DNA of 64,000 nt from Methanooceanicella nereidis (GTDB lineage: Archaea; Halobacteriota; Methanocellia; Methanocellales; Methanocellaceae), in the NCBI RefSeq assembly GCF_021023085.1, contig NZ_PGCK01000003.1, positions 1 through 64,000 on the forward strand, written 5' to 3'. Shown piece by piece: positions 22,592 through 59,095 of this stretch. The notes beneath the pieces were generated by a model. The model searched no databases, had not been told where the DNA came from, and was given only the letters and a program-made list of their open reading frames with translations. Both the position numbers and the translations under genes were made by a program. How positions within the stretch are numbered: position 1 is the stretch's first letter; every line of letters starts with the position of its first letter.

Positions 22592-23075
22592 TGATGCATT
22601 TTCATCTCAAAGACTCAAAGATGAGTGAAAGGTCTCAAAGATTTTTTTATGCATGAAGATGAAAAAGATAGCGTAAGTTAACCACGAAGGGCTCCAAGGT
22701 CCACTAGACTGTTAACCACGAAGCGCACGAAGGGCTCCAAGGTCCACTAGACTGTTAACCACGAAGCGCACGAAGGCGAGTAAGGTTCACTATACTGTTA
22801 ACCACGAAGCGCACGAAGGCGAGTAAGGTACACAAAAATTTTTTTAGTATATGATAATCTTCTTAAAAAGGTCCTTTGTGTTCCTTGTTCGCCTTTGTGC
22901 GCTTTGTGGTGAAAGCTAGTGGTCAATATTCGCTTCTATAGTAAGTATGATCAATGATACGCTAATATTCTTCGAAAAAGGTGATCACGTGTGCAAAAAA
23001 TTTAGTCGATATGTATAAAGAGAAACGTTGAATCTTTGAGTTGTCCTTCGAGTCTTTGAGATGAACATGCATCAT
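22592..23075. repeat. nested inverted repeat, outer arms
   Basis: The left arm (22592-22640) starts TGATGCAT and includes TCATCTCAAAGACTC. The right arm (23030-23075) carries the reverse complement, GAGTCTTTGAGATGA then ATGCATCA, with one or two differences over the first ~27 bases. Both contain further CTCAAAG modules. The arms enclose the CACGAAG-type element described separately, giving a large two-tier palindrome in the 633-bp gap between convergent genes. No coding region is seen inside. Confidence 0.7.
22677..22914. repeat. CACGAAG-type inverted repeat element, locus 1
   Basis: Four direct units starting GTTAACCACGAAG lie at 22677, 22711, 22754 and 22797. The last three are spaced 43 bp; the first is 9 bp shorter, lacking the internal CGCACGAAG module. 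An AT-rich centre (22833-22870) leads to a right arm at 22871-22914 in reverse orientation (TTCCTTGTTCGCC, then CTTTGTGGTGAA). The same design recurs at 49.4-50.2 kb and 58.8 kb. Confidence 0.85.
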
Positions 23076-47694: not shown

Positions 47695-49272
47695 GTGAAA
47701 TATGTAGTAGTGACCGGAGGTGTGATGAGCGGCCTTGGAAAAGGCATCACAGCAGCATCGACAGGCAGGATATTGAAGAACAAGGGCTATAACGTGACAG
47801 CGATAAAGATAGACCCTTACATTAACATAGACGCGGGCACAATGAGCCCATTCCAGCACGGGGAAGTCTATGTCCTGAAGGATGGCGGTGAAGCGGATAT
47901 CGATCTCGGGCACTATGAAAGGTTCATGGACATCAATCTCACTTCGGACCATAACATCACCACAGGCAAGATATACAAGACCGTCATCGAGAAAGAGCGC
48001 AGAGGCGACTATCTCGGCAAGACGGTGCAGATCATCCCTCACGTCACAAATGAGATAAAAGAGAGGATAAGGCGCATCGCGCGCGAGAGCGGCGCCGACA
48101 TATGCCTTGTCGAGGTCGGCGGCACTGTAGGCGACATAGAGAGCATGCCTTTCCTTGAGGCCGTAAGGCAGATGAACGCGGAAGAAAAGGAAGAGGATTT
48201 CACTCTTATCCATGTGACTCTCGTGCCCATCGACACGATGGACGAGCAAAAGACCAAGCCGACGCAGCACTCAGTAAAGGAGCTCCGCGAGCTTGGTATC
48301 CAGCCGGATATAATTGTCGGAAGGTGCAAGAAGCCTCTGCAAAAGTCCACAAAATCAAAGATATCACTGTTCTGCGATGTCCCGGAAGCGGCAGTCATCA
48401 GCGCCCACGATTCGGAAGACATCTATAAGGTCCCCATACAGCTTGAGCAGGAGGGCATGGCCGACTACCTGATGAAGCGCATGGGACTGGCCCCGCGCGA
48501 AGATTCGCAGTCATGGAACGCGATGGTCCAGAAGATGGACGACGCTGACCGAAACATTACCGTAGCTATCGTAAGCAAGTATGGTATAGAGGACGTATAT
48601 CTTAGCGTTAAGGAAGCGTTAAAGCATGCCGGCATCGCCACGGGCTGCACTGTAAAGGTACAGTGGGTAGAGTCCGAAGACCTGGAGAAGACAGAAGACC
48701 TGTCACCGTTCTTCAAGGGCGTCGACGGCATCCTGGTCCCGGGAGGCTTCGGGGTAAGGGGCATTGAAGGTAACATCAAGGCTATCAGGTACGCCCGTGA
48801 AAACAACCTGCCATACCTGGGCCTTTGCCTTGGCTTCCAGCTTGCGGTGATAGAGTTCACCAGGAACGTGTTAGGGTACGCGAACGCCACCAGCAGCGAA
48901 TTTTCGGCACAGGGCACTCATGTCATAGACCTGCTTCCGGAGCAAAAGGATGTCACTCACATGGGCGGCACGATGAGGCTCGGAGAGCACCCGGCATGGG
49001 TAAAGGAAAACACGCTGGCTCACAAGCTTTACGGCGTGACCAAGATATGCGAGAGGCACAGGCACCGCTATGAGGTTAACCCGGACATGATCGACGAGAT
49101 CGAGGCGCACGGGTTGGTATTCTCCTCTAAGAACGATAACCGTATGGAGATCGCCGAGCTTCCTGCTCATAAATTCTTCATGGCGACACAGTTCCATCCG
49201 GAGTTCAAGTCGAGGCCGGAAAGGCCTTCGCCGCCGTTCTTAGGGTTCGTCAAGGCGATGCTGCAAAAATAA
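47695..49272 (+). CDS. pyrG: CTP synthase
   Basis: Pyrimidine enzyme of 525 aa converting UTP to CTP with glutamine. The synthetase domain begins [21 protein letters not shown] and includes [24 protein letters not shown] and [11 protein letters not shown]. The glutaminase domain has the nucleophile in [13 protein letters not shown] and the His-Glu pair in [11 protein letters not shown]. It starts with GTG at 47695, with GGGGTGA upstream. A separate promoter is likely, as TATA-like elements lie in the 290-bp gap after the previous operon. Downstream is the expanded repeat element. Confidence 0.97.
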
Positions 49273-49380
49273 GGCTATTGAAAATGGCCGGGGCGAAAAG
49301 CCCTTATGATTTTTTATACGGCTCTGTGCCGTATAATTTTAGTATATTTTTCATTAACAGATCAAAATATTTCTTTTTCA

Positions 49381-49592
49381 CCACAAAGTACACAAGGGCA
49401 ACCAGGGTACACGGTTTTTCACCACAAAGTACACAAGGGCAACCAGGGTACACGGTTTTTCACCACAAAGTACACAAGGGCAACCAGGGTACACGGTTTT
49501 TCACCACAAAGTACACAAGGGCAACCAGGGTACACGGTTTTTCACCACAAAGTACACAAGGGTTACTAAGTAACACAAATTTTTTTTTGAAT
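49381..49592 (+). repeat. tandem repeat array, left half of CACGAAG-type element locus 2
   Basis: Five direct copies of a 41-bp unit start at 49381, 49422, 49463, 49504 and 49545. Each begins CCACAAAGTACACAAGGGC and continues with CAACCAGGG, TACACGG and TTTTTCA. The fifth degenerates into ACACAAATTTTTTTTT. The copies are essentially identical, so the expansion is recent or maintained. It opens 108 bp after pyrG. Open frames read through it are an artefact of the period. Confidence 0.92.
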
Positions 49593-49812
49593 ATGCTATT
49601 CTTTTAAGATACCTTCGCAATTTTTATCAAGTGTTGTCCCGATTTTGCTGTAATTTGAGAATCTATGCATGTGCTATGAGGCTGTCATATAAGATTTACA
49701 TAAAAATATGGATACTACCTTTTATCAGATATTCATATGTTGGGACTTTTGAAAATTTTATGAATTTAAAATCCAAAAATCACTATGCACAATCACTTAT
49801 AAAAAATCCTTC
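49593..49812. other. AT-rich centre of repeat element locus 2
   Basis: About 220 AT-rich bases separate the two convergent arrays. The beginning GAATATGCTATTC is itself a near palindrome and resembles the centres of the other two elements (AGTATATGATAATC; AGAATATCCATT). No gene with a ribosome site is recognised. An ORF that runs from here into the right-hand array is judged spurious. Confidence 0.5.
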
Positions 49813-50172
49813 GTGCTCCTTGTTTGCCTTTGTGTCCTTTGTGGTTGAGCTTGTGTTCCTTGTTTGCCTTTGTGTCCTTTGTGGTTGAGCTTGTGTTCCT
49901 TGTTTGCCTTTGTGTCCTTTGTGGTTGAGCTTGTGTTCCTTGTTTGCCTTTGTGTCCTTTGTGGTTGAGCTTGTGTTCCTTGTTTGCCTTTGTGTCCTTT
50001 GTGGTTGAGCTTGTGTTCCTTGTTTGCCTTTGTGTCCTTTGTGGTTGAGCTTGTGTTCCTTGTTTGCCTTTGTGTCCTTTGTGGTTGAGCTTGTGTTCCT
50101 TGTTTGCCTTTGTGTCCTTTGTGGTTGAGCTTGTGTTCCTTATTTGCCTTTGCGTCCTTTGTGGTGAAAAAC
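49813..50172 (-). repeat. tandem repeat array, right half of CACGAAG-type element locus 2
   Basis: Nine direct copies of a 40-bp unit start at 49813 and recur every 40 bp to 50133. Each reads TGTTCCTTGTTTGCCTTTG then TGTCCTTTGTGGTTGAGC on the + strand. In reverse complement (CCACAAAGGACACAAAGG) it is the mate of the left array, so the two halves face each other. The first and last copies diverge. The whole 1-kb gap between pyrG and the TerB-like gene is this element. Confidence 0.92.
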
Positions 50173-50287
50173 CGTGGACCTTAGTAACCTTTTCTGGTCT
50201 TTGTGGTGGAGAGAACTATAGAATATTCTTCCGGGATTTTAATCTCTAAAGAAAAAAGTACCGGATCTTATCCGGCTATTAACTCTT

Positions 50288-50728
50288 TCATCCTCTGTTC
50301 TTGATGACCATGACCTCTGCTATCTTGAGCGCGAGGTCGTCAGGGACGCCTAATACTTTTTGAAGCTCGTCAAGGAACTTTTTCTCCTCGTCCTCGACGA
50401 CGCCGTCCGCAAGGATGAGGTCTGCCGCTACTGCGAAAGCCGACTCACGAAGCTCCTGGTTCAGGGTCTCTTTCGCCGCGATCATGATAGCCCCGGGGCC
50501 CTGCTTTTTAAGAGTATTGGCGGCCTTCTCTAACAAGTTCTTCATCTGAGGCTCATTGTATCCCCTGTACATCTTCATGCGGGACAGAGCCGATATGACG
50601 CCTACTCCCTCTTCCTGGGATATGGAACCATCGGATGCCACAGCCGCTAATACGACACCGGTGAATGCCTCCGGCGCGGTCAGTTTGGCCGGCTGGTTAC
50701 CGCCAAACACCTTGTCGAATAATCCCAT
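50288..50728 (-). CDS. TerB-like tellurite resistance family protein
   Basis: All-helical cytoplasmic protein of 146 aa. Family traits are VVLAAVASDGSISQEEGVGVISAL near residue 25 and the second repeat ADLILADGVVEDEEKKFLDELQKVLGV near residue 105. In these, acidic residues in each DG-x-x-x-x-E motif bind metal in TerB domains. Tellurite resistance is not implied; such proteins occur in membrane-stress and signalling contexts. No other ter gene is nearby. Confidence 0.75.
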   Translation of the reverse strand: MGLFDKVFGGNQPAKLTAPEAFTGVVLAAVASDGSISQEEGVGVISALSRMKMYRGYNEPQMKNLLEKAANTLKKQGPGAIMIAAKETLNQELRESAFAVAADLILADGVVEDEEKKFLDELQKVLGVPDDLALKIAEVMVIKNRG

Positions 50729-58822: not shown

Positions 58823-58928
58823 TTTTCACCACTAAACGCACGAAGGCGAACAAGGAACACAAATTTTTTTAGAAATTTAGAATATCCATTAAAAAATTTG
58901 TGTTCCTTGTTCGCCTTCGTGGTGAAAA
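58823..58928. repeat. CACGAAG-type inverted repeat element, locus 3
   Basis: Left arm 58823-58870 and right arm 58891-58928 pair perfectly over about 28 bp (GAAGGCGAACAAGGAACACA, then AATTTTTT) around a ~20-base AT-rich loop. The left arm carries an extra ~9-base module (TAAACGCAC), the same kind of length difference as in locus 1. This is the simplest member of the family: one unit in each direction. Confidence 0.9.
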
Positions 58929-59095
58929 GGTGGCGTTCCTTTGTTGCCTTTGGGATGCACTTGAAGAAAGATAACTGACATATACGTTAAAGAAATTACC
59001 GGACACATCACAGGTAAAAGAAGATGGTCTTTTCTGTCCGATTAGTTTCTTGACGCTCGCAGGTTTGATTTATATCGCCTTTCTTCCATTTCATA

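Follow-up and report, generated by a model that had tools for sequence, protein, structure and literature searches.

Of the 1015 bases that separate pyrG from a convergent TerB-like gene in Methanooceanicella nereidis, about 830 are taken up by a palindrome made of two tandem arrays that face each other. This raises the question of what such a structure is and whether it spreads. The data gathered here, starting from a window of 64,000 nucleotides (the whole stretch of DNA that was analysed), suggest that the palindrome probably belongs, as a gene-less and non-autonomous copy, to a family of mobile elements that are linked to GxxExxY genes and dispersed through the genome.

Organization of the palindrome downstream of pyrG

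A sequence-only reading of this locus had described five rightward 41-bp units and nine leftward 40-bp units, opposed within positions 49381-50172. Using Tandem Repeats Finder, both arrays are recovered, the left one at 49374-49562 (41 bp x 4.6, 100% matches) and the right one at 49813-50165 (40 bp x 8.8, 99% matches). Unit-by-unit comparison upholds the two unit counts in this assembly and adds a degenerate tenth unit to the right arm, which had been overlooked; the limits of the palindrome are corrected to 49374-50207, and its centre measures ~230 bp. The element and its neighbours are laid out as follows:

47695..49272, plus strand: pyrG (CTP synthase; TIGR00337, E 7.7e-244), left neighbour, pointing at the element
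49374..49578, plus strand: left arm, five 41-bp units TTTTTCACCACAAAGTACACAAGGGCAACCAGGGTACACGG (Tandem Repeats Finder, unit-by-unit comparison)
49579..49611, plus strand: remnant of the family core, a T-run followed by GAATATGCTATTCTTTTAAGA, with 6 mismatches when compared with the core of class A (see below)
49631..49719, plus strand: 89-bp centre module, which recurs in the centres of other elements
49806..50165, minus strand: right arm, nine 40-bp units, reverse complement of ACCACAAAGGACACAAAGGCAAACAAGGAACACAAGCTCA (Tandem Repeats Finder, unit-by-unit comparison)
50166..50207, minus strand: tenth right-arm unit, outermost, degenerate (unit-by-unit comparison)
50288..50728, minus strand: TerB-like gene (PF05099), right neighbour, convergent, pointing at the element

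Four of the five left-arm units are identical and the innermost one has diverged; in the right arm, the units at the inner and outer ends are slightly diverged. The complementarity of the two arms lies well above chance. The alignment of the left arm with the reverse-complemented right arm extends over ~213 columns with a score of 85, the best of 200 shuffles being 19.

A family of elements in the host genome

The host genome (G000) comprises 3.19 Mb in 41 contigs, of which contig C3 (307 kb) was covered in full, elements on the other contigs being sampled via search matches. As the sequence-only reading had proposed, the genome was searched for the repeated units. The ACCACAAAGNNCACNAAGG pattern, with at most 2 mismatches, has 581 matches genome-wide, as against 3 for the reversed control, and contig C3 carries ~12 elements. 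Copies elsewhere keep the inverted arrangement, an outcome that favours the sequence-only reading: in 50 of the 53 sampled clusters that have units on both strands, every plus unit stands ahead of every minus unit, and the three exceptions resemble nested or neighbouring elements. Two further members of the family lie in the window itself:

22681..22910, no strand assigned: second element, class A, with plus units, core and a minus unit (unit and core matches, Tandem Repeats Finder)
58828..58956, no strand assigned: third element, minimal (unit matches)

Elements of class A have units of 43 bp and a core of ~30 bp, TTTTTTAGTATATGYTAATCTTCTAAAAAA. Those of class B, among them the window copy, have units of 40-41 bp and usually longer centres. 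The window copy contains no gene; it is placed by the similarity of its arms in the grouping proposed here, that of GxxExxY-linked palindromic elements. Class C is a second, longer inverted-repeat element, different from the other arms, whose centre contains either GxxExxY genes or the 89-bp module (loci L029 at C6:1-4000, L034 at C8:3500-9000, L118, L119 and L121). Gene-less class-C copies are nested within class-A elements at C3:158066-159000 and in L102. The 89-bp module of the window copy is also central in class-B L016, in class-C L029 and L034 and, more diverged, in class-B L026. Most elements open with a T-run followed by CACCAC and close with GTGGTG followed by an A-run, and the majority of the copies in this genome are gene-less.

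The arms are near-identical inside one element and unlike between elements, which indicates that the arrays grow and homogenise locally. The expansion of both arms that had been read from the window copy is thereby supported as locus-specific growth. No match to the unit pattern of the host was found in the three same-family genomes searched, and when element flanks were read by eye, no consistent target-site duplication was seen. Contigs C1, C4, C10, C13, C14 and C17 have ends in or beside such elements, where the repeats probably broke the assembly.

A predicted nuclease gene between the arms of fuller copies

What had escaped the earlier description of the locus is that the palindrome belongs to a genome-wide family whose fuller members hold a gene of the GxxExxY nuclease family between their arms. 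In two full-length copies, at C2:41076 and C12:110742, this gene lies exactly between the arms. Compared side for side with these two elements, the window arms match at 76% (left-left) and 83-88% (right-right). A GxxExxY gene between inverted short-period arrays is found in these two relatives of the window copy within the same genome. The central genes match TIGR04256 with E values of 4.7e-36 to 7.7e-41 and scores of 124-139, the curated cut-off being 35 bits, and also match PF13366. Three other GxxExxY loci are central in a class-C inverted repeat (C5:178895; C2:45716, a shorter open reading frame; C5:171271, with an internal stop), and a sixth, C21:1708, has no significant flanking repeat of this kind. 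The host genome alone thus has GxxExxY genes in two or more classes of arm.

The GxxExxY family (TIGR04256, PF13366) is known only as a predicted nuclease. The family has invariant putative catalytic residues (E, D...ExK); the protein is predicted to be a PD-(D/E)XK nuclease. Sequence searches found no solved structure among its relatives, remote matches were weak and Cas4-like only, and an AlphaFold2 model built from two sequences reached a pLDDT of 41.5. A search of the open-access literature found no report linking GxxExxY to flanking palindromic repeats.

The same architecture in other genomes

Flanking inverted repeats scoring above all 100 local shuffles were found at 23 of 33 bacterial and 15 of 23 archaeal GxxExxY loci, as compared with 1 of 27 loci of the TerB-like gene used as control; the bacterial genomes of this comparison are a non-random set, reached via the TerB-like gene from records of cyanobacteria, Bacteroidota, planctomycetes and desulfobacteria, and only one gene family served as control. 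About one third of the GxxExxY loci have no significant flanking repeat. One style of arm predominates, with short-period CACRAAG-type repeats such as ACGCAAAGG, CACAGAGG, CACGAAACACACGAAA, CGCGGAGG and CACGGATT; many of the microbial genomes surveyed contain short-period repeats of the CACRAAG/CGCAAAG type. By inspection, the gene-in-palindrome layout is also present on three virus-labelled contigs; it was not found in three further viral-contig scans. In G002, a single-contig assembly from the family of the host, a GxxExxY gene stands between CACCACAATGGCACGGAGTTCACGAAGG and its inverted version. This genome keeps the layout without the unit pattern of the host, which shows that unit sequences change fast while the layout persists. 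In another archaeon, G280, a GxxExxY gene on contig C24 is flanked by ACCACAAAGNTCACAAAGG units, and the same units occur in a run, ~158 bp apart, at C25:4101-7549.

A second gene family shares this organization. In bacteria, 21 of 27 loci with a gene for PF05635, the protein family of 23S rRNA IVS, have short tandem arrays in inverted orientation on the two sides of the gene (among L165-L194). These loci are far from any rRNA context examined. A PF05635 profile search of the host genome gave no match.

Placement and orientation of the elements

With gene calls from a simple codon model, 10 of the 12 elements on C3 lie between convergent genes, which make up 26 of the 145 intergenes of at least 100 bp (P 3e-7), and the corresponding counts off C3 are 24 of 43 elements versus 8 of 62 (P 4e-6). 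Most convergent gene pairs have no element.

The elements are also consistently oriented within a contig. Cores on one contig tend to share an orientation (P 7.5e-4), and in 47 of 49 elements the polarity given by the asymmetry of the arms is that of most elements on the contig; this polarity agrees with core orientation in 22 of 25. The intergenic GC skew of C3 is -0.012; as local strand skew is close to zero, strand-biased mutation is ruled out as the source of this polarity. The simplest, tentative reading of the orientation bias would be an insertion step linked to replication or to single-stranded DNA. An Orc1/Cdc6 gene is located at C8:3801 and all four core matches on C8 are on the plus strand, but a single contig is insufficient to prove replication polarity. 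In the single-contig assemblies G002 and G266, all six and all five GxxExxY genes, respectively, are on one strand, a further hint of orientation bias.

Folding and selection at the RNA level

If transcribed, the palindrome had been expected to give a very large hairpin RNA. In a folding prediction, the plus strand of the window element forms one long hairpin of -307.7 kcal/mol (z = -9.8 versus 20 shuffles). In the host genome, it is usually the core-sense strand that folds the better and that carries the G.U pairs. Across 36 GxxExxY elements from several phyla, no preference for the coding strand was found (15 for, 16 against, 5 ties), and RNA-level selection on the hairpin is thus unsupported in general. 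The bias seen in the host is therefore read as an inherited asymmetry of the arms that serves as an orientation marker only. An Rfam search returned nothing at gathering score; one sRNA match, far below the cut-off, was taken as chance.

Proposed mechanism and alternative explanations

Mobility is the reading that we favour for the palindrome, in view of the 581 unit matches against 3 for the control, the nested elements and the absence of the unit pattern from three same-family genomes. The data above establish the dispersal of the elements, their layout, placement and orientation, the local growth of the arms, the linkage to the gene and the recurrence of the layout in other genomes. A complete member consists of a T-run and ACCAC..., inward-facing short-period units (ACCACRAAGNNCACRAAGG...), a small GxxExxY gene and the units again in inverted form. 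We infer that the nuclease moves the element: it may act on palindromic ends folded as hairpin or cruciform, both those of its own copy and those of gene-less ones, and this action would spread both kinds. The orientation bias would reflect a replication-coupled or single-strand step. After insertion, the arms would lengthen and homogenise via slippage or unequal exchange. Copies would persist best between convergent gene ends, because no promoter is hit there.

The main rival account, which we hold to be unlikely while giving it some weight, is that replication or recombination by the host, or a different enzyme, spreads the arrays, in which the genes just ride along. Such a passenger role would fit with the housing of two unrelated gene families in like elements, with the gene-less majority of host copies and with the swapping of centres, e.g. 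the 89-bp module, between arm classes; PF05635 genes with like flanks also mean that either GxxExxY or PF05635 could be the passenger. It fits less well with the strong association of GxxExxY in distant phyla, with the invariance of its putative catalytic residues and with its occurrence in more than one class of arm within a single genome.

We consider it distinctly improbable that the element was multiplied for its usefulness to the host, as a two-way transcription terminator or a protector of mRNA 3' ends between convergent genes. Such a role is favoured by the strong enrichment between convergent genes (10/12 on C3, 24/43 elsewhere), by the very stable predicted hairpin and by the T-runs at element ends. 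That placement is, however, explained equally well by survival bias. Moreover, most convergent pairs do without an element, three same-family genomes lack the unit pattern, a symmetric terminator needs no chromosome-wide orientation bias, and the G.U preference of the coding strand is missing across phyla. Because the family appears young and orientation-biased, a terminator role is the less likely one.

Finally, identical tandem copies are hard to assemble and several contig ends lie within such elements, which would fit with an assembly artefact or a chance palindrome. This reading has a negligible probability and is already contradicted at the family level by the single layout found at dozens of separate sites, where the units are locus-specific and the flanking genes intact, and by the recurrence of the architecture in other genomes, the single-contig G002 included.

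Comparison with known mobile and repeated elements

By comparison with described systems, the family behaves most like REP/BIME elements with their RAYT transposases, and is built like the intervening sequences (IVS) of 23S rRNA. REP units are palindromes of 20-40 bp with GTAG/CGTC tags (PMC3733652). Both REP/BIME (PMC3733652) and the present elements are multicopy extragenic palindromes with opposite-facing units, located mostly beside gene 3' ends, and in both a linked gene is the presumed mover of the gene-less copies. Unlike REP, the units of the window element are direct repeats without an internal 20-40-bp palindrome, only the arms being inverted, and the linked gene belongs to the PD-(D/E)XK family, not to the Y1 transposases (RAYT). 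In 23S rRNA, an IVS has a small open reading frame flanked by complementary ends, which pair into a long stem, and is regarded as selfish (PMC4990558). The complementary ends around a small gene are shared with the present family, and in the survey made here the IVS family PF05635 also occurs in inverted arrays outside rRNA. The window element, in contrast, lies outside rRNA, between pyrG and a TerB-like gene, in an archaeal host that has no PF05635 match, and the linked protein is of another family.

As in miniature inverted-repeat transposable elements (MITEs), short gene-less inverted-repeat copies exist beside gene-carrying copies with related ends, and the window element is indeed multicopy, gene-less and bounded by terminal inverted repeats. 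It differs from MITEs in that no classical transposase is linked and in that the arms are expandable tandem arrays. A CRISPR array, made of direct repeats and unique spacers, does not describe it: the units are contiguous and near-identical over their full period, and the arms are inverted.

GxxExxY is a common family for which we found no role, and its linkage to the repeats gives the two a testable account, in which gene and repeats belong to a single mobile element. Should the nuclease move the repeats, bacteria and archaea would share a process that resembles transposition but has no classical transposase, and the many gene-less intergenic palindromes would be explained as well. The similar gene-in-palindrome arrangements of both domains suggest an overlooked kind of mobile DNA. 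A wider proposal, put forward tentatively, is that GxxExxY nucleases define a cross-domain class of mobile palindromic elements, in which a PD-(D/E)XK nuclease takes the place of a classical transposase in spreading inward-facing arrays and the gene-less copies derived from them, with insertion in a fixed orientation to replication, PF05635 elements being a parallel class of like architecture.

The TerB-like neighbour

The TerB-like gene (50288-50728) that borders the element has no match in the same-family genomes searched, and the nearest relatives found are bacterial, with 50% identity to cyanobacterial proteins. It is therefore likely that this gene was horizontally transferred.
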